IMG/VR virus record: IMGVR_UViG_3300017708_003308
Location: 1 to 46,234 of that record
Length of the DNA stretch: 46,234 bases
Direction: 5' to 3' (one strand)
DNA from: a virus
The notes beneath the pieces were generated by a model. It saw only the letters and a list, made by a program, of their open reading frames with translations. It did no database searches and was not told the origin of the DNA. Below, one piece after another: positions 6,023 to 38,540 of this stretch (position 1 is its first letter; the number at the start of each line of letters is the position of its first letter). Both the position numbers and the translations under genes were made by a program.

Positions 6023-8029
6023 TCAACCTGCCTCCAGTGTGGCCACTTTAGCTTCAAGGGTTTCAATGCGCTCCATTGCTTCTTGGAGTGCCTTGACTGC
6101 TTTCATATAGAGCACGGAATACTTGACTGATTTAGTAACCGTTCCAAGATCGTTGCCGTCTTCGTCGCGATCAGGTGCTTCATCAATGAGACCAGGCGAT
6201 ACTGCTTCAAGCTCTTGTGCAACAACACCAATCTGCGTATGAGTTTGTCCTTCAATAAAATTAAAGTTTCGGACTCTTACATCTTTAATGTTGTTCCACT
6301 GAGAGTTTGCATCAACAATGTTTTCTTTCAGCTTTTGATCTGAAATCTGTCCGTAAGAGTTGTTGGTATTTACAACATTTCCGTTAGACCACACAGTAAA
6401 ACTTTCTGTTCCACTGAGCATGTTGCCAGCAGCAGCGGAATGATGTCCCCTGAACAGGTATTTAACTGTTCCAGCACCTACGGTGGTTCCAGCTAGGAAG
6501 CCATGATTTGTTGATATATGATAAATAACTCCTTCATTTGTAAGCCTTATCCGCTCTGCACTGCTTGCTTCATCTTTAATTGCTAAAAATGAATTATTGG
6601 CAACCGCTAAAGAATATGTTCCATTGCCAGGATTATTTAGTACAAATTTAGCATTAGTATCATCCGTTACTTGAAAGTTTGCATCTGCTACATAGGGGCT
6701 TGTAGCGCCCACCAACAGCCTGCCCGCGCTGTCGATTCTCATTCGTTCCGTAGCAGATGATTGATCGTCTGCTGTTGTGGAGAAAATTAAACGGCCTGGT
6801 TTATTGTTGATTGCCTGAGTTCCATCAGCCGCTGCAATAATTGAAGCGTTTTCTTGATAAGCACCATCATTATCATTGCTGTAAAATCTTATAGCTCCAA
6901 CAGCGTCTCCAGCTACAACAGTGGTGTCGTTTCTACCTAAGTAAATTTCTGCGCCAGAAGAATCGGCAGCCTGGATTTTTCCATAACTGGTTGCATTAAT
7001 TGCAGATGATGTCCCCACCAACAGCCTGCCACTTGTGTCCAAGCGTGCCCTCTCGCTGTTTCCATCAGTGGCAAAAAGTAAGTTTTCTTCTGCTCTAAGT
7101 CCAAAGTCAGTATTAGAGCCACCAGAAGTTACATGATTTGCACTTGCTAAATAACCAGCAAATCCGGAACCGCCTCCGTCTTTAAATTCAAGATACTTGT
7201 TTAGTCGTACACCACCATCAGAGCTAATTCGTAATTGCTCGGCAGCAGCGATATCAAACCGCATAAAATCGCCTGCATGGTTGTAAAGAACAGCGCCACG
7301 ATAAAGAGCATCACCCGAAGTACCATCGGCAAAATAAATAGTTCCGTAATTACTAGTGCCGCTAGCAATACTTAAACCTTGTCCGCCTGATCCAGAACCT
7401 ACAACTAAATTCCTTCCGTCACTATTGTAACTACCAGGCGATGAGTTATTTATTCCAACGTTGCCCGAGCTGTCGATTCGCATCGCCTCACCTGCTGGAG
7501 TATGGAATGCTAATGCATCTGTCCCGTGATCAAACCTAATAATGCCACGTTGATTACCATCGTCAGTGTCATTGAAATAAATACTGCCATCACTACTTGA
7601 TCCTGAACGAATTGTTATGCCAGCATTAGTGGCATTTTTAATAACTAAATCTCTTGCAGCTGCGGCATAAGATGATGGGCTCGCAGTCCCAATCCCAACA
7701 TTTCCCGAGCTGGCAAAAGTGACAGTCTCAGTAGTACCTGACCCGCCTTGGCGAAAATGAAATGCGGTGTTATTAGCATCTAAATAGATTTCATCGGCAA
7801 CTGTAGAATTTGTGCCATCGCCAATATAAATAAAACCACGATCAACCGTACTTGCAGCACGTTCTAAAACAATTCCTTGACGATAACCACCATCTTTAAT
7901 TGTTAATCTACCGGTAGGCGACGACGTTCCAATCCCAACATTGCCCGAGCCATCGATAACGAACGAATCAGCAGGAGCGCTGGAATTAATATTTAAACCT
8001 TCTATGAGTTGAGCTTTAGTTTGACTCAT
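6023..8029 (-). CDS. Tail fibre with C-terminal S74 chaperone domain
   Basis: The 668-residue protein has a Gly/Ser-rich shaft with recurring units such as DSSGNVGIGTSSP and RLLVGTSS, typical of trimeric phage fibres. The C-terminus is an intramolecular chaperone of the peptidase S74 type: SDQKLKENI (Ser563 would be the autocleavage nucleophile), then IGVVAQELEAV and a terminal coiled coil (ALQEAMERIETLEAKVATLE). The S74 domain guides trimer assembly and is then cut off. It lacks the N-terminal anchor shared by the fibres at 33026 and 35430 and lies 25 kb away from them. It probably recognises the host surface. A promoter-like sequence lies at 8055-8082. Confidence 0.92.
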   Translation of the reverse strand: MSQTKAQLIEGLNINSSAPADSFVIDGSGNVGIGTSSPTGRLTIKDGGYRQGIVLERAASTVDRGFIYIGDGTNSTVADEIYLDANNTAFHFRQGGSGTTETVTFASSGNVGIGTASPSSYAAAARDLVIKNATNAGITIRSGSSSDGSIYFNDTDDGNQRGIIRFDHGTDALAFHTPAGEAMRIDSSGNVGINNSSPGSYNSDGRNLVVGSGSGGQGLSIASGTSNYGTIYFADGTSGDALYRGAVLYNHAGDFMRFDIAAAEQLRISSDGGVRLNKYLEFKDGGGSGFAGYLASANHVTSGGSNTDFGLRAEENLLFATDGNSERARLDTSGRLLVGTSSAINATSYGKIQAADSSGAEIYLGRNDTTVVAGDAVGAIRFYSNDNDGAYQENASIIAAADGTQAINNKPGRLIFSTTADDQSSATERMRIDSAGRLLVGATSPYVADANFQVTDDTNAKFVLNNPGNGTYSLAVANNSFLAIKDEASSAERIRLTNEGVIYHISTNHGFLAGTTVGAGTVKYLFRGHHSAAAGNMLSGTESFTVWSNGNVVNTNNSYGQISDQKLKENIVDANSQWNNIKDVRVRNFNFIEGQTHTQIGVVAQELEAVSPGLIDEAPDRDEDGNDLGTVTKSVKYSVLYMKAVKALQEAMERIETLEAKVATLEAG

Positions 8030-9553: not shown

Positions 9554-9576
9554 CTCTGCACCTACCGTTGAACCTT

Positions 9577-10515
9577 ATGTCAGTCCTTGACCGCTACCTG
9601 AACACTGAAAAGTATCAGGGTGTGATGCGTGAGCTAGCCATCGCACAAATCCTGAACGAAAAGACCAAGCCAGGTCTTTTTATCAAACAGAACGCCCTTG
9701 ACCGTTGTGGTTTCACAGGCGAAGCTGAAGACTTCCCGAATGCGGAAGCCGACTACGAGCATGTCTTTAACACCGGAGACACCGAAAAGGGGATGTTCTT
9801 CAAGACACCCCGAATGTTGATCATCCATGGTGGTAACCCGAAGGACACCACCTTCATTGAAAACTCGAAAAATAAAGGTGAGATCGTAGGGATTTACCCG
9901 CAGGACAACTTCCTCTATGACGATTGGGAGGAAAAGAACCCTGGTCAGCCCTGCCCTTACAAGCGTCGCCGTTTGATCCTGATGTACCTCGTGAACGAGG
10001 AAGGAGTTGCTGCACACAAAAAACCTTTGATCCTCTCACTGCACGGAGGCGCATCGCGTGAGTTCGTCACTGCCTATGGACGTTTCCTTGAGCAGCTCGA
10101 GGGTGCTTTCAGTGACAAGTACAACCTGAAGAGTGCCACAGGTTTCGACCCCAAACAAGCTGCTGCTGCCATCTTTACTCCCACCTTTGGGACTGTGATG
10201 TACGGCGAAAAGCAGAAGTCTGCAATCGCAGTACCTAAAACCTGGAAAGAACCTACCGCTAAAAACCTTGAAGAGTTCTTCCCAGCAAAAGGGGACGACA
10301 TCGATTACATCGAGGACGTGCACCAAACCGTGACCATGGAGGTCTACTGCGCCAAATTCTTCAAGCAATGCGAGAAGGAGATTGGTATCAACGCCATCGC
10401 ACCTGGTGTTGACTTAAGCAACCTCACACTTCCTGTGCCTGAAGGGTCCGGTGGCATTCGTGCCATGCTGTCTGCTAGAGACGAGACCGGAGCCATTGAG
10501 GGTGGGCTGAAGTAA
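9577..10515 (+). CDS. DUF5895-like protein of the replication module
   Basis: The product is 312 residues from the ATG at 9577. It resembles, from memory, DUF5895 proteins of cyanobacteria and their mobile elements, which have unknown function. Visible features are FKTPRMLIIHGG, IYPQDNFLYDDWEEKNPGQP and LILMYLVNEEG, which suggest an alpha/beta domain, and an ordered second half with several Lys-rich segments. It has no signal peptide or membrane helix. It stands between two terminators (9530 and 10633), so it is probably expressed as its own unit next to SSB, and a role in DNA metabolism is a guess from position. Confidence 0.7.
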   Translation: MSVLDRYLNTEKYQGVMRELAIAQILNEKTKPGLFIKQNALDRCGFTGEAEDFPNAEADYEHVFNTGDTEKGMFFKTPRMLIIHGGNPKDTTFIENSKNKGEIVGIYPQDNFLYDDWEEKNPGQPCPYKRRRLILMYLVNEEGVAAHKKPLILSLHGGASREFVTAYGRFLEQLEGAFSDKYNLKSATGFDPKQAAAAIFTPTFGTVMYGEKQKSAIAVPKTWKEPTAKNLEEFFPAKGDDIDYIEDVHQTVTMEVYCAKFFKQCEKEIGINAIAPGVDLSNLTLPVPEGSGGIRAMLSARDETGAIEGGLK

Positions 10516-10695: not shown

Positions 10696-10953
10696 TCAGG
10701 TGGTCTCATCATTAAGAAACCCTTGTAATGCCATTGTTTCGTATTGGACGAGACGCTTACATAAACCACGAATTGCAGCTTGTCTTGCAGTAGCAATTTG
10801 CACAAGCTTTTTTGCAGCCTCACGTAACTCATCTACGTTTGTTGCTGCATCAATCTCTTTGTTTATACGCGCTTCTAAAAACTCATCTTCCATAGTTTTT
10901 GAAATATCTAACTCCTCGAACGGGACTTCGATGATCGCAAACTCTTCAGACAT
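10696..10953 (-). CDS. Small helical protein of unknown function
   Basis: The 85-residue protein is acidic at the N-terminus (VPFEELDISKTMEDEFLEARI) and more basic later (IATARQAAIRGLCKRLVQYE), probably a helical bundle. It is the lone minus-strand gene inside the plus-strand replication module. Relatives with the ATxRQAxIRGLCKRL pattern seem familiar from cyanophages, but no function is known to me. Confidence 0.6.
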   Translation of the reverse strand: MSEEFAIIEVPFEELDISKTMEDEFLEARINKEIDAATNVDELREAAKKLVQIATARQAAIRGLCKRLVQYETMALQGFLNDETT

Positions 10954-11351: not shown

Positions 11352-11954
11352 ATGGCTGATCCGAAAAGTTACCAAGAGATCCTGCAAGAGCAAAAAATGA
11401 TCGAGGAGTTGATTGACCTCCCTGATACAGATGACGAGCAGAAGGCAGAACTAGCCATGCTTTGGCGTGACTTAAAAAGCCGTGAAGCTTACAAGTTTGA
11501 CGCGATTATCGGTGTCATTAAAGAGTGCGACAACTGCATTCATCAGTTCACTAAAGAGATGGACGAGCTTCGAGGTACTGTCGACTACTGGAAATCGAAG
11601 CGCCAAAATGTTATCAACATTATTAAGGCAGCCTATCAGACTCAATTAATAAGTGCGAAACCTACTGGTCTTAAGTATCAAGCCACTATTAAAAATGTTC
11701 TGCCAAAAGTTAAGGACAACTTTGATAGATGGAGTGAAGCTGAGCGGCAAAAATTTGGAATTAAAAAAACAGTCGTTGTGGAAACAATTCGCGATGGTGA
11801 CGTAATTAAAAAGAGAGAAGACATATATGCAGATAAAGAGGAGTTGCGTCAAGTACTAATGGATAATCCTTCACTGGCACCAGATGAAGCACAGCTCGTC
11901 AGGAGAGTCTCACTCTCATATGGCTATCGTAAACGTTTGCAAAAAGGCGTTTGA
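11352..11954 (+). CDS. Siphovirus Gp157-like protein
   Basis: This 200-residue protein resembles the Gp157 family, helical phage proteins often found next to SSB or recombination genes. The N-terminal ~90 residues form long charged helices (ILQEQKMIEELIDLP, then LKSREAYKFDAIIGVIKECD and MDELRGTVDYWKSKRQNVI), followed by a beta segment (TGLKYQATIKNVLPKV) and a charged C-terminus. Members often have an N-terminal coiled coil that keeps Lys and Glu in register as here. Role in replication or recombination is inferred from the family's usual context. Its stop shares two bases with the next ATG. Confidence 0.7.
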   Translation: MADPKSYQEILQEQKMIEELIDLPDTDDEQKAELAMLWRDLKSREAYKFDAIIGVIKECDNCIHQFTKEMDELRGTVDYWKSKRQNVINIIKAAYQTQLISAKPTGLKYQATIKNVLPKVKDNFDRWSEAERQKFGIKKTVVVETIRDGDVIKKREDIYADKEELRQVLMDNPSLAPDEAQLVRRVSLSYGYRKRLQKGV

Positions 11955-24873: not shown

Positions 24874-25036
24874 AGATTTCATAGCTGCTTACACGCCTGA
24901 CTTGGCTATTTTTGACGCTATTGATCTTCTGAAACATTTTGACCCGGACGCTCTTGATTACCTAAACCGCGAGGTGGAGTGGACCAAAGTCGATAGAAAC
25001 GACGAATCACATGACCAGAAGGATCCCAATCCTTAA
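24863..25036 (+). CDS. 57-residue acidic protein overlapping the lysozyme-like gene
   Basis: ATG 24863 (inside the end of the Nmad1-like gene) to TAA 25036 encodes an acidic product opening MKYEDFIAAYTPDLAIFDAI and then DLLKHFDPDALDYLN. Its last 119 bases are antisense to the end of the convergent gene 24918-25700. The start overlap and a protein-like composition support it, but it is small and unrecognised. Confidence 0.5.
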   Translation: MKYEDFIAAYTPDLAIFDAIDLLKHFDPDALDYLNREVEWTKVDRNDESHDQKDPNP

Positions 25037-25700
25037 TTTTCTTTTCCAAATACTCAACCGCCTTAATTTGAGAAGGAGACCCTGTGTAAGTCTCCGGCAG
25101 ATTTAAAAGGCAAACTGACGTGTGGCAATCATGCCGTACAAATGAAGGCATTTTGACGTCTGCAGAAAAATATGTATTTAATTCTGTGCGACGCCTATCC
25201 CTCATCAGTTCACCTCCTGATAGCCAATACTTATTGATATAAGGGCTCCACTCCTTAATTAGCTCTCTTTTGCTTGCGTGGCTGTTTATCAGCTCCAATA
25301 AACGAGAGTTTTTGAAACCTAAAATCCCAAGACTGTGTGCGAAACTTAGGACAGCGGCCTTCCTGTTTTTGTTGAGGGGCACGTAAACGTACTGCTGCAC
25401 CTGATCAGAGAAGGTCTGCAGATCTTTTTCAAGCTGCTCCTCAATCTCGTTGGTATAAAGTTTGTCATGCATCGAAACTGCACGACCGAACACCTGCTGA
25501 CTACCATAGCCGACTCGCCAAAACTTCTCACCATACTCTCGGTAAGAAGCAAAACGCCCCATACCGATAGCAGTACGGGGCGGGGTATATATCTTGATTA
25601 ATTGAATTCCTTTTTCTGTAAGAAAAGGGTGTTCTTTCCAAACACGTGATTTCTTACGGGACGACAACCTTAGCGATGTAGCTGACTTCAGAATAACCAT
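24918..25700 (-). CDS. GH24 (T4-type) lysozyme-like protein, catalytic Glu not evident
   Basis: The 260-residue product contains the signature of phage lysozymes: Tyr53 to WRVGYGS (61-67), AAVLSFAHSLGILGFKNSRL (115-134), and RDRRRTEL (167-174), matching the GYG, helical core and RRxxE regions. The region before Tyr53 normally supplies the catalytic Glu (EGxRLxAY); here it reads GMGRFASY, so the Glu seems to be replaced by Gly. The first ~25 residues are basic and the last ~60 form an extra domain. It may be a divergent endolysin or a tail-associated or regulatory relative. Its 5' end overlaps the 25654 gene by 47 bases; a TTG at 25667 is another possible start. Confidence 0.7.
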   Translation of the reverse strand: MVILKSATSLRLSSRKKSRVWKEHPFLTEKGIQLIKIYTPPRTAIGMGRFASYREYGEKFWRVGYGSQQVFGRAVSMHDKLYTNEIEEQLEKDLQTFSDQVQQYVYVPLNKNRKAAVLSFAHSLGILGFKNSRLLELINSHASKRELIKEWSPYINKYWLSGGELMRDRRRTELNTYFSADVKMPSFVRHDCHTSVCLLNLPETYTGSPSQIKAVEYLEKKIKDWDPSGHVIRRFYRLWSTPPRGLGNQERPGQNVSEDQ

Positions 25701-26037
25701 CCAGCTTCAAGAGGACAATGTAGTTCTTGGTGGCATTTGTCACCGTCACACCGACTGCGCCTTTGCCTTTCCCAGCCTGTGCGACATTAAATGCCTTCTT
25801 ATAACCGGTGGGAGCTGAACCAGCTGAGTGGTCATCATCCTGGAAGATCTCCATGGAAATGACACCGGCGGAACGGTCTAAAGAAACAGTGATGTCGCCT
25901 GTGGTGCTGGGGTTTACTTCAAAAGCACGTTGACTTAGGCCGGTATTGTTACCAACACCTGCACCTTTGTAAGTGACGTCACTTCCAGAGTCGACTGAGA
26001 ATGTGTCAAGAGTACCCGTAACAATACGATCAGCCAT
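25654..26037 (-). CDS. Virion-type beta-sandwich protein
   Basis: The 127-residue product is a Gly/Ser/Thr/Val-rich beta protein (TGTLDTFSVDSGSDVTYKGA, later GDITVSLDRSAGVISMEIF and AVGVTVTNATKNYIVLLKL), the style of small phage structural or decoration proteins. It has no signal peptide. It follows the NblA-like gene by five bases and precedes the lysozyme-like gene, so all three are probably one minus-strand operon. Family not recognised. Confidence 0.6.
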   Translation of the reverse strand: MADRIVTGTLDTFSVDSGSDVTYKGAGVGNNTGLSQRAFEVNPSTTGDITVSLDRSAGVISMEIFQDDDHSAGSAPTGYKKAFNVAQAGKGKGAVGVTVTNATKNYIVLLKLDGYSEVSYIAKVVVP

Positions 26038-26042
26038 GGCTA

Positions 26043-26258
26043 TTAAGAGATTTGTCCAATAGTGGAGAAGTTGAACTTGATATCGGCGTCGATACCGTGG
26101 TCTTTCAGAATGCCTAGGAACATCTGACGGTCAAGAGCTTTTTGATGAAGCATTTCGATAAATGCTTCCTCTAACTCATCTCGATCCAGGCCTTGAATGG
26201 CCAGAGATGCTGCGTGGATTTGAAATTCAACGTCCACGGGAAGCTCTAATGCATCCAT
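26043..26258 (-). CDS. NblA-like phycobilisome-degradation adaptor
   Basis: The 71-residue product looks like NblA, a small two-helix dimer that links phycobilisomes to the Clp protease in cyanobacteria. It opens MDALELPVDVEFQIHAASLA, then has LDRDELEEAFIEMLHQK and MFLGILKDHGID. It aligns without gaps to my memory of NblA: the L/S-x-E-x-x-F opening, the (S/D)RE/D-(D/E)LE-(D/E)-x-FIE segment, the QK and the final xFxGxLK. Length (about 60 residues plus a tail) fits. The C-terminal tail (ADIKFNFSTIGQIS) is longer than usual. A purine-rich GGTAGG lies about 9 bases before the ATG. Similar cyanophage genes are known; a search should confirm this one. Confidence 0.6.
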   Translation of the reverse strand: MDALELPVDVEFQIHAASLAIQGLDRDELEEAFIEMLHQKALDRQMFLGILKDHGIDADIKFNFSTIGQIS

Positions 26259-26297
26259 GGTAATTACCTACCTTGGATCTATCTTACCAGCGCTGAA

Positions 26298-26462
26298 TTA
26301 ACTGACAAGCAGATCAGGTCTGACGTTCGTGACTGCATTCTCACGTAGGTCCCTGATTTCTTTCGGGATTAGGCGGCCAGGGTCGACATCAGCTGCTTCA
26401 AGCCCTAATCCAGCGTCCTTTACGTATTCTTCGAGAAAGCGTTCGGCTGATCTGGACTTCAT
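26298..26462 (-). CDS. 54-residue protein of unknown function
   Basis: ATG 26462 to TAA 26298 encodes a charged product opening MKSRSAERFLEEYVKDAGLG, followed by LEAADVDPGRLIPKEIRDLR. The composition is protein-like and the frame is open for a further 48 bases upstream without a start codon. It lies upstream of the NblA-like gene on the same strand. Not recognised. Confidence 0.5.
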   Translation of the reverse strand: MKSRSAERFLEEYVKDAGLGLEAADVDPGRLIPKEIRDLRENAVTNVRPDLLVS

Positions 26463-26550: not shown

Positions 26551-26600
26551 AGTTTTAAACTCAAGTACCCTCTATATTGTACGAAGGGTCCTCCGAGACA

Positions 26601-27395
26601 ATGGACGATATTGGATTTCAACGTGAATTACTCACTGCAGCTATTGGTGGCGTCAGCAAGACACAACTGCTGAGAACACTTACAAAAAAATACGGCTGTA
26701 CCGAAGAATATATAAATGAAGCCCTTGACCTCTGTTCATTAAAAACTAAGCCCGAAAGCATTAGACACAAAGATTTTTACGATTGCCCGATAACTAAAAA
26801 AGCAAAAAAAATAAATTATCCATTTACACAGATTTATAAACAGGAAGATTTTTTAAGTGAAGCCGAATGCTCTGATCTGATTGACCTTATGAACCAAAAT
26901 CTTAGGCCTTCCACAGTGTCTGACAAGACAGACAGCAACTGTGTCAGTTCTTACCGGACAAGCACGACCGCTGATCTACACTACTTTGATAACGATTTTT
27001 ACTTACAACTAGATAAAAAAATTAGTGAGTTTATGGGATTAGAACCATTTCTCGGTGAGGCCATACAAGCTCAAAAGTACGAGCCAGGCCAATATTTCAA
27101 AGAGCATTGGGATTTCTTTGATCCTTTGACCACAGAATATAAAATTTATTGCGAATGGATGGGGCAAAGAACTTGGACAACAATGATATATCTAAACGAT
27201 GTTGAAGAAGGTGGAGAGACGTGGTTTAAGCACTTAAAACTCACAGTCAAGCCCAAGCGCGGTCTGCTTCTTGCGTGGAATAATCTTTACAAAAATGGTA
27301 TTCCAAATTTTAAAACAATGCACGAAGCCTTCCCACCAAAACAAGGTAATAAGTACGTGATCACTAAATGGTGGCGCAGCTGGGCCTTAATTTGA
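26601..27395 (+). CDS. 2OG-Fe(II) oxygenase (prolyl 4-hydroxylase-like)
   Basis: The protein is 264 residues from the ATG at 26601 (TTG at 26577 is possible). The iron and 2-oxoglutarate site is visible: His169-x-Asp171 in KEHWDFFD, His241 in TMHEAFPP, and Lys251 in NKYVITKWW, in the order of the P4H fold. The barrel segments TTMIYLNDVEEGGETWF and KRGLLLAWNN are typical. N-terminal residues 1-60 are a helical extension. It would hydroxylate a protein or other substrate using 2-oxoglutarate and oxygen; such genes are common in cyanophages, and their substrates are mostly unknown. It converges on the 27387 gene with a 9-base overlap. Confidence 0.88.
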   Translation: MDDIGFQRELLTAAIGGVSKTQLLRTLTKKYGCTEEYINEALDLCSLKTKPESIRHKDFYDCPITKKAKKINYPFTQIYKQEDFLSEAECSDLIDLMNQNLRPSTVSDKTDSNCVSSYRTSTTADLHYFDNDFYLQLDKKISEFMGLEPFLGEAIQAQKYEPGQYFKEHWDFFDPLTTEYKIYCEWMGQRTWTTMIYLNDVEEGGETWFKHLKLTVKPKRGLLLAWNNLYKNGIPNFKTMHEAFPPKQGNKYVITKWWRSWALI

Positions 27396-28896: not shown

Positions 28897-29706
28897 TTAA
28901 TTTTTCCGGCAATTCAGCCATCCAAAGGCACTGCAACCGCCACCAAAAAAAATACGATTACGAGACTCTTCAATGTCATATGTCACCGCTTTACCACTGC
29001 CCTCTTCATTAGAAACCCAAAAACCCCTTTGGATGTCAGCCCGACCAATTGAGTCATGTGCTAACCAGTGCGTGTCGCTGTAGCCGTAGATAAGAATGCA
29101 ATACGTAAATCCGCGTGGTTTCTCAGGTGTACCTTTAATTACAAGCCCTACAGGAATGCTTAGACCTTGATCAATCGTTTCTTTAATGTCACTTTCATCT
29201 AAATCTCTGACGAACTTCATGGGAACACCCATCTCGCGCAAGATATCAAGGTGTGTGGTGGCTTTTGAAGAATCACCATAGTTGCCAACCCTGCTTACAT
29301 ACTCTTCATAAGTGTCATTATTAAAGAGTTTTTGCTGAAGGAGGCACGCCCCTAAAGTGCAGGATAGAGATTTCGCAGCGTCAGTTACTCCGTTGTATGG
29401 GTGGTGGATGTAAGGGGTGTCTGGCAAAAACCTGAAACCTTCTGACTCCAAATACGGAGGGGCTGCCGTCGGTATGTTGCTATCGATCCAGTCCTGATTT
29501 TTAATCCACCAGGGTCCAATCACTGTCCTTATCTTTGTATAACCTTCTGAAGTATTGAGAATAAAGCAATTCTTTAGATGTCTGTCCTTAAGGACAAGAG
29601 CATACTGGTCTGGCGCCAAATCCTCAGTACGCCTCGGCTCCTCTAGAAGCTCTGTATTACTGATCGAGGTTAGGTCAATAGAAGCACCTGGCCGACCTAA
29701 AATCAT
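28897..29706 (-). CDS. C39-like peptidase-fold protein, candidate endolysin
   Basis: The 269-residue product resembles C39-type papain-fold peptidases. The candidate nucleophile is Cys116 in SLSCTLGACLLQQK. The downstream strand GFTYCILIYGYSDTHWLAHD (199-218) matches the region that in active members reads GGHxxxxxGYxxxxWxxHDP. The catalytic His of that motif appears to be replaced here, near Thr201. The N-terminal ~80 residues are a separate domain (YALVLKDRHLKNCFIL, then WWIKNQDWID). Its start overlaps the stop of the putative holin gene by four bases, which suggests a lysis pair. Alternatively it is a virion hydrolase relative. Confidence 0.6.
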   Translation of the reverse strand: MILGRPGASIDLTSISNTELLEEPRRTEDLAPDQYALVLKDRHLKNCFILNTSEGYTKIRTVIGPWWIKNQDWIDSNIPTAAPPYLESEGFRFLPDTPYIHHPYNGVTDAAKSLSCTLGACLLQQKLFNNDTYEEYVSRVGNYGDSSKATTHLDILREMGVPMKFVRDLDESDIKETIDQGLSIPVGLVIKGTPEKPRGFTYCILIYGYSDTHWLAHDSIGRADIQRGFWVSNEEGSGKAVTYDIEESRNRIFFGGGCSAFGWLNCRKN

Positions 29707-33025: not shown

Positions 33026-35092
33026 TCATTCTTCTGTTTCTTCCACTGCTTCAACAACCTTCTCAGGTTCTGTAATGACGCGACCAGCGGCATCAGTCCA
33101 GTCGGTATCAATCATGTGCTGATCTTTACGTTCGCCAACAACCATCCAAGACACCTTGCTTGTTGCTGTTGCATCTTGAGCGGCAATTGTTAACACATTG
33201 CCTGTGACTGAACCTTTAACAGCGATCCAATCAGATTCGTTACTTGTAAAACAACTAACGTTGGTACAAAGCACTTCAAATGTGCCTTCTGACATACGAC
33301 CTGCAGTATCAATGTTAACTGTTGCTTGACCATCAACTAAGTCAACGTAACCGCGATAAATTAGATCAGCCTGCGGTCCTTCAATAAAAGAGTGAACAAG
33401 ATGATGCGTTTCGGCTTTAGCAGGTAAAGGATGGCTGATTTTAAATGAGCCTGACCCCTTAGAAAGAGACCCAGCAAATGTCGCGTTTCCGTTACCTAGG
33501 ATTGAACAAGTAGTGGTTCCAGAAGAGTTTACTCCACAGAAAGTGCGTCCACCAGCGTTAAAGTTTTGAGCAAATACAGTAGATGTATTACCTGTACTTG
33601 TTCTATTCGAATAAGCAGTAATGCCGTAGTCAACAGAAGTGCCACTTACTGCCGCATGACCAGTTTTTACTCTTTGTTTGAACAAGCCTTCGCCGCCTGC
33701 TGAAACAGAAAAGGTAGCTGTTGAATTGCCGGTCGTATAGCCTCTATATATAAACGAGCCTGTACTATCAAAAGAGGCAGAGAATCCACTCTGTCCGTCT
33801 ATTCTCGATCCATTATTAGCCCCTGCGCCAGCGTCCCCTTGTGAAATAATTGTGCTAGCAAAAGTGGCGGTGCCGTCTGAAGCAATGGAAGCCTTTGTTG
33901 TTCCGTTTAGCTTGGCATGAAAACAACCGTCACCACTACTCGTTCGGTTTACTGATAAGACACCACCAAACTCAGCAGTGCCTGTAGCAGTAATATTCCC
34001 ATCGCTACTAATCCTCATCCGCTCCGTAGGGCTCGATGCACCAGCGGCGGTGGTGGAAAATACGAGACGGCCAGGTTTGTCATTAGCGGCATGAGCACCG
34101 CTTGCTTGACAAGCAATGCGAGCAACTTTTTGAGACCCCCCATCGGTTGAACGAAAGTCAATAATTCCGATAAAATCGTCAGCAGCTACTGAACTATCTT
34201 CTCTTCCAAGTAGTAACTTACCTGCGCTTGAGGTAAATATTTGAACTTTAGCGTTTGCATCGCTTTCTGATTGGTCACTGCTGGTTCCCAGTAACATCCG
34301 GCCACTTGAGTCGATTCGTAGCGCCTCAACCGATGAAGTACGAAACTGCATTGAATTATCAGCGTGATCGTATCTCAGCATTCCTGCAAATTCAGCAGAA
34401 GTTGCTGTGTTATCTCCAAAATAAATGGAGCCTTTGCCGGAAGTTGAAGTTTGGAGAGAGATTATTTCACTTGCAGACGTATTATCACCAAGCTGTAAGT
34501 CACGGACAGGCGACGCCGTGCCTATACCAATCCGATCATTTCCACCATCGACAAACAGCATGTGAGTCTGGCCATTTGACTCGACGCGGAAGTCAACATC
34601 ATTGCTGCCGTCGTTGAATACAACTTCAGAACTGCCAATCTCTAAACGCTCAACACCACCTGTGGTGACATTCACCTTATCTGCTGCACTACTGAACAGA
34701 CCACTATCAGTGCCGCCTAACTGAAGGGACGAAGTAGCAGCTGAACCGTCAGCTAAATTAACAGTAAGCCCACTTGCAAGCTTTGAAGTAGTGACGGTCG
34801 CATCACCAGGAGTATTAGTATCTGTTACGTCGCCCTGAATGACACCAAAGAAATCAAGGCTGGCTGCAGGAGCCGTGGTAAAAGTAATCTGATTACCTGC
34901 GATGGTGAAATCAGTGAGAGGGTTCTGGATTATACCGCCAACTGAAATCCACAACTGGAGGGCACTTCCAACACTTACGTTCTGGCTTGCGATCTGTAAC
35001 GTGAATGTCGTCTGGCTACCATTAAAGCCACCGGAAATGTCGTCTAACTTACGGTTCTGGCCACGAACCAGCTGCTTTCCAATGTAAGGCAC
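33026..35092 (-). CDS. Tail fibre with anchor domain shared with the repeat fibre
   Basis: The 688-residue fibre starts with GTG at 35092. Residues 1-90 are an N-terminal virion-anchor domain (MPYIGKQLVRGQNRKLDDIS, then GGFNGSQTTFTLQ and DFFGVIQGDV) that resembles the first 90 residues of the 35430 fibre. The shaft has fibre-type units such as EVVFNDGSNDVDFRVESNG, DRIGIGTASPVRDL and MRISSDGNITATGTAEFGG. It ends with a beta-rich tip (ESDWIAVKGSVTGNVLTIAA) and an acidic tail, and has no S74 domain. Host adsorption is the inferred role. A promoter-like sequence precedes it (35113-35142). Confidence 0.85.
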   Translation of the reverse strand: MPYIGKQLVRGQNRKLDDISGGFNGSQTTFTLQIASQNVSVGSALQLWISVGGIIQNPLTDFTIAGNQITFTTAPAASLDFFGVIQGDVTDTNTPGDATVTTSKLASGLTVNLADGSAATSSLQLGGTDSGLFSSAADKVNVTTGGVERLEIGSSEVVFNDGSNDVDFRVESNGQTHMLFVDGGNDRIGIGTASPVRDLQLGDNTSASEIISLQTSTSGKGSIYFGDNTATSAEFAGMLRYDHADNSMQFRTSSVEALRIDSSGRMLLGTSSDQSESDANAKVQIFTSSAGKLLLGREDSSVAADDFIGIIDFRSTDGGSQKVARIACQASGAHAANDKPGRLVFSTTAAGASSPTERMRISSDGNITATGTAEFGGVLSVNRTSSGDGCFHAKLNGTTKASIASDGTATFASTIISQGDAGAGANNGSRIDGQSGFSASFDSTGSFIYRGYTTGNSTATFSVSAGGEGLFKQRVKTGHAAVSGTSVDYGITAYSNRTSTGNTSTVFAQNFNAGGRTFCGVNSSGTTTCSILGNGNATFAGSLSKGSGSFKISHPLPAKAETHHLVHSFIEGPQADLIYRGYVDLVDGQATVNIDTAGRMSEGTFEVLCTNVSCFTSNESDWIAVKGSVTGNVLTIAAQDATATSKVSWMVVGERKDQHMIDTDWTDAAGRVITEPEKVVEAVEETEE

Positions 35093-35429: not shown

Positions 35430-38400
35430 TTAGATGCCTGCAGCATCCAGTCTAGCTTTGAGCGCAGTATTTTCTGCAGACAGTTCCTGCACAGCTTTTA
35501 CCAGCGGCATCACGAACATCTCGTAGCTGATGCCTTGGATGTCTTCATTGTCAACAGTCCAACCAGCAAAGTCAGTGACGTTGTGATCATCTAAGGCTTG
35601 CTTTACCTCTTGAGCAATAAAGCCATACATCTTGTTGGTGTAGCTAGCTTCGGTCTTGCTTGCGTCGTAGCCGTACAAGTCGCTATCAAGCTCAGACGGT
35701 GCTTTCCATTTATAAGTAACGGTTCTGAGGTCGTTAATAAAACCAAGACCCAAATCAGCATTGGTTTGAATGTCTTTCTTTAGGCGAACATCGGAGCTGC
35801 GAGTCCACGATGCGTTTGATGTGAACTGGTTGTAGACCCTGTTACCTGAGCTGCCAAAAGTAAAATAATTATCGCCTATAGCCGAAATGCTTGTACCGAT
35901 TGTAATTGAATATACTTGGCTATTTGCAGCAGCGTCAGCGTTATAACCAACGCAAATATTTGAAGCGCCAGTAGTAATTGCGACACCCGCACCTTTGCCA
36001 ATTGCAGTGTTGTTATTGCCAGTGGTGACGTTATAAAGAGCACTTAAACCAACCGCTGTGTTATTAATAGCACTGGTATTGTTATAAAGAGCTTCTTTTC
36101 CAAAGGCTGCGTTGCTGTGACCAGTTGTGTTGGTAAACAAAGCAGCACGTCCGGTAGCCGTATTATCTGAAGCAGTGGTGTTGTTATAAAGAGCAGCCCA
36201 TCCAGCGGCGGTGTTTTTACTTCCAGTGGTGTTGCTATATAAAGCTTGATACCCATTAGCTGCACATTCAGCGCCAGTAGTGTTTGTATAAAAAGCTTTA
36301 TATCCGACAACACTATTAAAGCTGCCAGTAGTATTGTTAAAAGAAGATTGAGAACCGACCGTAACATTTCCCGTGCCAGTGGTGCTATAAACCAAAGAAT
36401 TAAATCCAACAGCTACATTGTCAGATCCAGTGGTGTTAGCAGTAAGAGCACCTTGTCCTATGGCAGTGTTTTGATCAGCAGTAGTGTTTGCGTAAAGAGC
36501 TTTTCGTCCAACGGCTGTGTTGCTATCACCACTGACGCTGCTATAGAGAGCCTTAAACCCGATGGCTGTGTTGTTATCAGATTGGGTATTTGAATAAAGA
36601 GCTTGTCGCCCAACAGCTACGTTGTTACCACCAATGGTGTTAGCCCAAAGAGCTTGGTAACCAATAGCTTCGTTGTTAGCGCCAGTGGTATTGGTATAAA
36701 GGGCTTGGTATCCAATGGCGTTATTTTGAGCACCAGTGGTGTTGTTATACAGGGCTCTATACCCGTGAGCGGCGTTGTTAGCAGCAGTAGTGTTGGATCC
36801 GAGAGCGCCTTCTCCGGTAGCTGTGTTTCTAATGCCAGTGGTGTTGGCAGTAAGAGCTAAGTATCCATTAGCCGTGTTATCAGAACCAGTAGTGTTGGCG
36901 TATAAAGCGTTAAATCCGTTAGCTACGTTGTAATTACCAGTAGTGTTGCTATATAAAACTTGGGCTCCGTTAGCTGTGTTTCTAATGCCTGTGGTGTTGG
37001 AATAAATGGCTCGGTATCCGCTAGCTGTGTTCTCAACGCCAGTGGTGTTTGCCTGGAGAGCACTGCTTCCAGTAGCTGTGTTATTAGCTCCAGTGGTGTT
37101 TGCTTCTAAAGCTCTAAACCCGAGGGCAATGTTAGATGCACCTGTTGTATTTGCTTCTAACGCTTCTTGGCCGAACGCGCAGTTAAAATCAGCAGTGGTT
37201 GTATTTTCTCCAGCTAATGTGCCAAAAAAGCTATTGTTAGATCCCGTTGTAACTGATTTTCCAGCATGCTTACCAAAGGCACTGTTGCTGCCACCAGTGG
37301 TGTTTGAATCAAGCGCTTGTGAACCGACTGCAGTGTTACTGCTGCCAGTGGTGTTCTCTTCTAAAGCTTGATAACCCACAGCCGTATTATCGCCAGCGGT
37401 CGTATTCTTTTGCAGTGCTTCATTGCCAACTGCTACGTTATTGTTTCCTGTAGTTACTGTGTCTAAAGCGATATAACCGACGGCAACATTATGCGTTCCA
37501 GTGGTTAAGTTTGCTAAAGCATTGCTACCTAACGCTGTGTTTTCGCCCCCCGTAGTGCAATCGGTAAGAGCCGATCTGCCGACAGCAGTGTTGTTATCTG
37601 CAGTAGTGTTTGCATCGAGAGCAAGATAACCAACGGATACGTTGCTAGCACCAGTGGTGTTTGCTCCAAGTGCATCTGCGCCAACAGCAACATTTTTTAA
37701 ACCTGAAGTATTTGCATCTAGTGCGTTGTTGCCAACAACCGTGTTTGTCGCAACGTCACCCGCTCCACGGCCAACAGTGACCTCATGGATTAAGGCGTCT
37801 CCACCATCAACATCAAGAAGTGCTGAAGGAGTTGCAGTAGAGATACCTACCCTGTCATTACCTGCATCTATGTGTAGAAGGTTGGCATCACCATTCCCTT
37901 CAACGCGGAAATCTAAATCATTACTTGCATCGTTAAATACAATTTCTGCGCTGCCAAACGAAGCACGCTCAACACCACCTGTCGTGATGATAATTTCGTC
38001 AGACGCAGGACGTGCAAGGCCTGTGTTCGTATCTGACGTGAAAAAGATGCTTGGACTAGCAGCAGATCCGTCAGCAAAGCCACTGCTCAGACCAGTCGCA
38101 CTAAATACACCAACCTCAGTACCAGCACATGCAATGCCGATTTCATTAGCTGCTTTTGAGAAGAACCCAGTATCTTTGTCCGTGACGAAGGTGATAGAGG
38201 GCGCGGCGACACTGCCTGCCGGGAAATCAACACCTACATTGACATAATCAGCACCAGCAAGAATTACACCAAAGAAGCTTGCACCACCTGATGGTGCTGA
38301 GCTAAATACAATATTACCGCCGCTAAGATTAAAACCTGATGAGCCTGTAGGATCAGGCTCTTGAATAACACCAGCGATTGAAATTAAACATTGCTGGGGG

Positions 38401-38540
38401 TTAATTGGTAAAGGTACAGGTGCTGCACCACCTACTTGTAGGGCAAAACTTGTAACACTGCCATTGAAAGAAGAACTAATATCATCAATGATCAGATAAC
38501 TTTGAAAAGCTACCTCAAGGTCGTTACCGATGTAAGCCAT
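35430..38540 (-). CDS. Giant tail fibre with 35 tandem 17-residue repeats and S74 chaperone
   Basis: The 1036-residue fibre has three parts. Residues 1-100 are an N-terminal anchor like that of the 33026 fibre (MAYIGNDLEVAFQ, IDDISSSFNGS, FFGVIL). Residues 273-867 are 35 perfectly phased 17-residue repeats of the form ALYxNTTGxxNTAxGxx (for example ALYSNTTGSKNTAAGWA), 51 bases each, DNA positions 35940-37724. The C-terminus is a peptidase S74 chaperone (SDVRLKKDI with Ser916, then YGFIAQEVKQAL and a final coiled coil). The repeats resemble the left-handed beta-roll of trimeric autotransporter adhesins. The role is host recognition. Confidence 0.92.
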   Translation of the reverse strand: MAYIGNDLEVAFQSYLIIDDISSSFNGSVTSFALQVGGAAPVPLPINPQQCLISIAGVIQEPDPTGSSGFNLSGGNIVFSSAPSGGASFFGVILAGADYVNVGVDFPAGSVAAPSITFVTDKDTGFFSKAANEIGIACAGTEVGVFSATGLSSGFADGSAASPSIFFTSDTNTGLARPASDEIIITTGGVERASFGSAEIVFNDASNDLDFRVEGNGDANLLHIDAGNDRVGISTATPSALLDVDGGDALIHEVTVGRGAGDVATNTVVGNNALDANTSGLKNVAVGADALGANTTGASNVSVGYLALDANTTADNNTAVGRSALTDCTTGGENTALGSNALANLTTGTHNVAVGYIALDTVTTGNNNVAVGNEALQKNTTAGDNTAVGYQALEENTTGSSNTAVGSQALDSNTTGGSNSAFGKHAGKSVTTGSNNSFFGTLAGENTTTADFNCAFGQEALEANTTGASNIALGFRALEANTTGANNTATGSSALQANTTGVENTASGYRAIYSNTTGIRNTANGAQVLYSNTTGNYNVANGFNALYANTTGSDNTANGYLALTANTTGIRNTATGEGALGSNTTAANNAAHGYRALYNNTTGAQNNAIGYQALYTNTTGANNEAIGYQALWANTIGGNNVAVGRQALYSNTQSDNNTAIGFKALYSSVSGDSNTAVGRKALYANTTADQNTAIGQGALTANTTGSDNVAVGFNSLVYSTTGTGNVTVGSQSSFNNTTGSFNSVVGYKAFYTNTTGAECAANGYQALYSNTTGSKNTAAGWAALYNNTTASDNTATGRAALFTNTTGHSNAAFGKEALYNNTSAINNTAVGLSALYNVTTGNNNTAIGKGAGVAITTGASNICVGYNADAAANSQVYSITIGTSISAIGDNYFTFGSSGNRVYNQFTSNASWTRSSDVRLKKDIQTNADLGLGFINDLRTVTYKWKAPSELDSDLYGYDASKTEASYTNKMYGFIAQEVKQALDDHNVTDFAGWTVDNEDIQGISYEMFVMPLVKAVQELSAENTALKARLDAAGI
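35940..37724 (-). repeat. 35 copies of a 51-base (17-residue) repeat
   Basis: The repeats encode ALxxNTTGxxNTAxGxx units without any gap or phase change, 35 x 51 = 1785 bases. Copies 10, 11 and 35 begin with AG instead of AL, and copies 27-29 are the most diverged. The region should be prone to slippage and length variation. The high repeat conservation keeps the opposite strand open in several frames, but those frames are only shadows. Confidence 0.93.

Follow-up and report, generated by a model that had tools for sequence, protein, structure and literature searches.

NblA, a small dimeric protein of cyanobacteria, recruits the Clp protease to the antenna by binding ClpC close to its N terminus and phycobiliproteins close to its C terminus (PMC4103541, PMC7966870, PMC7760959). 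The conserved N-terminal motif of the family is held to make the contact with ClpC (PMC4103541). Phage-borne NblAs have been published for Ma-LMM01, PaV-LD, phages from marine metagenomes and S-SCSM1 (PMC9602691, PMC4103541). S-TIM5 is also listed among the nblA-bearing phages; moreover, phage NblAs are expressed in infection and expressed copies lead to loss of phycobilin (PMC9602691). Marine cyanophage NblA has been known since 2019, going by the citation of Nadel et al. 2019 in PMC9602691.

Here we analyse a virus record of 46,234 bases (hereafter the window), in which a first-pass annotation had recognised a small gene for an NblA-like adaptor handing phycobilisomes to Clp. The open reading frame, which we call a-type, is exactly where that annotation placed it; it lies on the minus strand, runs complete from ATG to stop and encodes 71 residues (MDALELPVDVEFQIHAASLAIQGLDRDELEEAFIEMLHQKALDRQMFLGILKDHGIDADIKFNFSTIGQIS), and on the opposite, plus strand stops interrupt the interval (Table 1). 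The protein resembles cyanobacterial NblA/Ycf18 (PF04485, NF045916; 3cs5, 1ojh, 2q8v, 2qdo) in size, predicted helices and a C-terminal lysine, and aligns without gaps over ~50 residues at 27% identity to the Synechococcus elongatus protein. It departs from that family in scoring below the cut-offs, in carrying D-V for E-Q in its opening motif and in a conserved C-terminal part of 19 residues past the core. The freshwater phage NblAs of Ma-LMM01 and PaV-LD, for which bleaching activity is published, are likewise phage-borne and similar in size and predicted helices; however, they reach 45-52 bits with Pfam NblA and share just 17-18% identity with the a-type. Marine S-SCSM1 (ORF237), S-TIM5 and metagenomic phages also carry NblA-like genes, and a second gene of the window (c-type, below) belongs near these, whereas hhalign gave no direct match between the a-type and the S-SCSM1 and S-TIM5 proteins. 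The protein AHV82245.1 (b-type) of the cultured Synechococcus phage S-EIV1 matches the a-type with 87-89% hhalign probability over 57 gap-free columns that include the tail; like the a-type it adjoins a lysozyme gene and has a c-type gene in the same genome. It differs in sharing 28% identity over the aligned columns, in its longer acidic C terminus and in its reversed order relative to the lysozyme gene.

The a-type is therefore a real divergent branch of NblA-like proteins and not something categorically new. The branch appears not to have been annotated before, judging by comparison with S-SCSM1, S-TIM5, Ma-LMM01 and PaV-LD. As to the earlier description of a phage copy, NblA homology and the cyanophage setting are both well supported, but phage NblA as such had already been published.

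Table 1. Positions of the genes and sequence elements discussed (window coordinates unless a genome is named)
Feature	Position	Strand	Remarks
NblA-like a-type gene	26043..26258	-	complete ORF, ATG to stop, 71 aa
Ribosome-binding-site-like sequence	26267..26274	-	AAGGTAGG, ahead of a-type ATG
Promoter-like element	26280..26312	-	TTGTCA (26308-26303), 16-nt spacer, extended -10 TGGTAAGAT
127-aa protein gene	25654..26037	-	5 nt downstream of a-type; no significant family match
Phage lysozyme/endolysin gene	24918..25700	-	Pfam Phage_lysozyme 1.2e-15; PHROG endolysin
Terminator-like hairpin	25555-25582	-	at lysozyme ORF start
54-aa upstream ORF	26298-26462		probably not a gene
2OG-Fe(II) oxygenase gene	26577-27395	+	divergent to a-type
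Second endolysin-type gene	28897-29706	-	PHROG 10051
Tail-fibre/tail-spike gene	6023-8029	-	large
Tail-fibre/tail-spike gene	33026-35092	-	large
Tail-fibre/tail-spike gene	35430-38540	-	large
NblA-like c-type gene	10696..10953	-	85 aa; family-profile matches, hhalign
DUF5895 gene	9568-10515		flanks c-type
200-aa protein gene	11352-11954		flanks c-type
S-EIV1 (KJ410740) b-type, AHV82245.1	73902-74222 (L083:34403-34723)		annotated hypothetical, NblA-like
S-EIV1 (KJ410740) c-type	L082:27768-27986		annotated hypothetical, NblA-like

Homology, motifs and conservation of the a-type protein

Among 177,635 PDB sequences searched with phmmer, the top match of the a-type was S. elongatus NblA (3cs5; E 0.0025), with Anabaena NblA also among the matches (E 0.66), and hmmsearch with a family profile of 29 relatives retrieved NblA from the PDB at E 9e-4. 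The best NCBIfam family was the NblA equivalog model NF045916 (E 1.8e-4), where the protein scored 21.7 bits, far short of the 100-bit cut-off. General Pfam and PHROG scans gave no match to the a-type, and the Pfam NblA model (PF04485; cut-off 25 bits), run across the whole window, did not match the protein either. A search against this Pfam profile had been proposed as the check on the annotation, and its outcome was mixed: the protein itself was missed, yet for a diverged ortholog on an 84-kb contig (L270) NblA was the best Pfam family (19.3 bits, E 0.0016, below cut-off), as it was in NCBIfam. Because the scores of the a-type fall under both curated cut-offs, we file it as NblA-like and not as a certified NblA.

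Profile-profile comparison of the a-type family with a small NblA alignment gave 93-94% hhalign probability over 59-60 columns, a score that none of 200 column shuffles reached (maximum 22.9 vs 37.7) and for which the reversed profile returned 4.6%. The gap-free likeness noticed at first reading was borne out by an ungapped alignment to S. elongatus NblA with 13/48 identities (27%, Z = 11.8), within the range that accepted NblAs share with the S. elongatus protein (25-29%); identity to the remaining NblAs tested was lower (13-22%). Furthermore, a profile built from cyanobacterial and freshwater-phage NblAs only was run over 19,274 ORFs drawn from the window and the fetched loci, and its top non-training matches were the a-type family and its S-EIV1 counterpart. 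A tblastn search for the a-type in cultured phages yielded chance matches only.

An unrelated two-helix protein could resemble NblA by chance, since short helical sequences easily match one another and the scores lie below the curated thresholds. We consider this highly improbable given the shuffled and reversed controls, the ranking among the 19,274 ORFs and the agreement of separate searches (phmmer, family profile, Pfam and NCBIfam). The shuffles and the ORF-wide scan likewise rule out an effect of composition. Homology to established NblAs is thus detectable by phmmer, hmmsearch, hhalign with shuffles and the ORF scan, and on these comparisons the a-type is very probably a homologue of NblA.

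All the motifs quoted in the first-pass annotation are present, namely LELPVDVEF (residues 4-12), of which the LExP/S opening is part, DRDELEEAFIEMLHQK (25-40) and MFLGILKD (46-53). The N-terminal motif of NblA, read from A2, is L-x-x-E-Q-x-F; the a-type has L-x-x-D-V-x-F, in which L and F are invariant, E is replaced by D (42/46 sequences) or N, and Q by V (45/46). The opening of the diverged ortholog, LELSMDNEF (D-N), is nearer to the NblA opening LSLEQEF. Replacement of the E-Q pair by D-V makes ClpC binding by the a-type uncertain, and this contact is the weakest link in reading the protein as an adaptor. At the other end, the C-terminal phycobiliprotein-binding residues of Anabaena NblA, Leu51 and Lys53, align in the a-type with I50, a position held by I or V, and with K52, which is kept in 46/46 sequences. 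The C-terminal tail had been called distinctive; Nostoc NblAs have a tail too, and what is unusual here is its invariance (KDHGIDA in 46/46 sequences).

These same features could point to a retargeted or inhibitory NblA, which would deliver another protein to ClpC, or pair with host NblA and block it, leaving the antenna intact. Nearly all members carry D-V for E-Q while the remainder of the protein is frozen, the invariant extended tail (KDHGIDA...) suggests an added contact, and the same genome holds a second NblA-like protein. Nevertheless, the near-normal opening of the diverged ortholog, the invariant C-terminal lysine and the phycobilin loss caused by those phage NblAs that have been tested (PMC9602691) all speak against this, and we regard retargeting or inhibition as possible but unlikely.

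The proposed check by predicted fold came out in favour of NblA at the level of the single chain. AlphaFold2 placed helices in the a-type at residues 8-21, 26-40 and 44-53 with modest confidence (pLDDT 72.5), matching helix for helix a control PaV-LD-type phage NblA modelled identically (9-23, 27-39, 45-54). At 71 aa, and with these helices predicted at modest pLDDT, the protein has the make-up of a small, ~60-residue two-helix hairpin. Foldseek of the a-type model against the PDB and BFVD found no NblA; the positive control missed NblA in the PDB as well, and this null result therefore carries no weight.

Scans of viral contigs returned 199 and 258 stretches encoding a-type relatives, a total of at least 258. 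Across the loci compared, the a-type proteins share a median of 86% identity with that of the window, compared with 60-72% for five neighbouring genes, a contrast that is inflated because the loci were picked by similarity to the a-type protein. The a-type is under strong purifying selection, with dN/dS of ~0.04 and synonymous sites near saturation. When 19 contigs were chosen instead by the c-type gene, 11 carried the a-type, more diverged ones included. The search for cellular relatives gave a single match, on a phage-like contig in a Bacteroidetes MAG (QQUU01000116.1). This contig holds the same phage gene block with an NblA-like protein 99% identical to the a-type, and is probably phage contamination of the MAG.

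Gene neighbourhood and promoter-like element

The 127-aa gene adjoins the a-type in 95/97 loci and the lysozyme gene is kept beside it in 92/97. The lysozyme-like neighbour of the first-pass annotation is confirmed by its family match, whereas the 'virion-type' neighbour finds no support, the 127-aa protein having no significant match in Pfam, PHROG or NCBIfam. In the window the lysozyme ORF overlaps the 127-aa ORF. Where the lysozyme ORF begins, a strong hairpin resembling a terminator recurs, with loop changes, in 32/90 relatives, and the true lysozyme start codon may lie downstream of it; its restriction to these relatives and its overlap with the lysozyme frame make a role as terminator of the 127-aa gene no more than a possibility.

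Several other genes lie around this block. The 2OG-Fe(II) oxygenase gene, divergent to the a-type, is present in 71/97 loci. The second endolysin-type gene is the fastest evolver of the neighbourhood, with identity falling to 23-35%. Three large tail-fibre/tail-spike proteins share PHROG modules, and one of their genes stands isolated next to the DNA polymerase gene. The 54-aa ORF upstream of the a-type was dismissed as a gene, being found in just 11/97 loci.

Upstream of the a-type, an AAGG-type ribosome-binding motif is kept in most of 66 distinct sequences. Further upstream is a promoter-like element whose 16-nt spacer holds the palindrome CAGCGCTG between the -35 and the -10. Promoter-like sites by themselves occur at chance level in the region. 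This element, however, lies upstream of all 96 a-type loci scanned and also of three loci outside the matrix training set (L271-L273), and there are no further copies within the window. With an element so conserved and gene-specific, the a-type is probably served by a host-type promoter of its own, as opposed to simply forming part of a late operon, and the palindrome could be the operator for some regulator. The earlier remark that the neighbours are unusual for lack of a metabolic cassette is weakened accordingly.

The position of the gene would also suit a small helper in lysis or the virion, one retaining an NblA-like fold and partnering the 127-aa protein and the lysozyme, ahead of whose genes it stands in 92-95 of 97 loci, with 5 nt of spacing in the window. 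Against this, the a-type is preceded by a promoter-like element specific to it, diverges at a much lower rate than the 127-aa and lysozyme genes and matches no lysis or virion family, while its sequence homology favours NblA. We judge such a helper role distinctly unlikely.

A second NblA-like gene and the phage lineage

The c-type gene was absent from the first-pass annotation and was found after a Pfam NblA search of relatives had flagged additional genes. Run against whole phage genomes, its profile matched S-SCSM1 at 208957-209109, inside ORF237, which is both annotated and published as NblA. It also matched the annotated nblA of PaV-LD and the S-TIM5 protein AEZ65625.1, annotated as hypothetical. 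In hhalign the c-type scored 96% with S-SCSM1 NblA, 92% with the S-TIM5 protein and 90% with the NblA profile. Direct homology between a-type and c-type was unsupported (hhalign 3-7%) and the two are thus linked only through NblA. The c-type gene is present in 11/11 a-type genomes of the first panel and in 6/7 b-type genomes, S-EIV1 included; all three types occur together in one genome.

NblA1 and NblA2 of Synechocystis form an obligate heterodimer. By analogy, S-EIV1-like phages might maintain a standing pair of unlike NblAs (a or b with c) that cooperate under separate control as a two-part system of antenna disposal, in which the partners could likewise form an obligate heterodimer. We consider this arrangement doubtful. 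Four features set the a-type branch apart from NblAs described so far: the changed N-terminal motif, the invariant tail, the dedicated promoter-like element and the regular pairing with the c-type.

The window encodes DNA polymerase A, primase, nucleases, endolysins and tail fibres. The primase has its best match in S-EIV1 (33% identity over 96%), and the c-type gene is likewise shared with that phage. The closest relatives of the DNA polymerase are roseophage polymerases, which makes kinship to S-EIV1 distant, and window DNA from 20000 to 44900 matched no cultured phage. Therefore, on gene content, the source phage is best described as an uncultured S-EIV1-like cyanophage, distantly related to S-EIV1 itself. 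The lineage of Flores-Uribe et al. 2019 is reported to carry NblA and an integrase and to have its DNA polymerase split; the polymerase of the window is intact (628 aa), and the two lineages are thus probably different. Matches to the hli-type (chlorophyll-binding) family occur in 9/16 genomes of the S-EIV1-like lineage, four of them over cut-off, in accord with cyanobacterial hosts. A search for CpeT found none, and nor did one for AOX/PTOX, for which the AOX control was likewise silent. A survey table of marine viral genomes gives the S-EIV1 group hli and ptoX only as photosynthesis genes (PMC5332604), and antenna degradation may therefore have been overlooked there.

Proposed function and significance

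We favour, with some reservation, the reading that S-EIV1-like cyanophages encode in the a-type a diverged homologue of NblA, which as an adaptor passes phycobilisomes to the Clp machinery of the host. The protein would dimerise, with the C-terminal part of the dimer binding phycobiliproteins and the N-terminal part binding host ClpC. The antenna would then be dismantled and fed to ClpCP, with bleaching; the infected cell would thereby gain amino acids and absorb less light. Timing would be set by the gene's own host-type promoter, from which transcription possibly also continues through the genes for the 127-aa protein and the lysozyme. This role is supported by the NblA homology, the helix pattern, the invariant K52, the kinship to S-EIV1, the hli matches and the precedent of phage NblAs; it is weakened by the below-cut-off scores, the D-V opening and the modest confidence of the model. 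Hosts of the Prochlorococcus type have little or no phycobilisome, and the possibility of such a host counts against it. Moreover, with the gene placed ahead of that for lysozyme, another role would fit too.

Phage NblA is among the few known viral routes that dismantle, and do not sustain, the photosynthetic machinery of the host. As the a-type shows, small adaptor genes of this kind slip past Pfam and PHROG scans. The a-type branch is widespread in a little-studied cyanophage lineage, where its conservation suggests a core gene and not an occasional acquisition.
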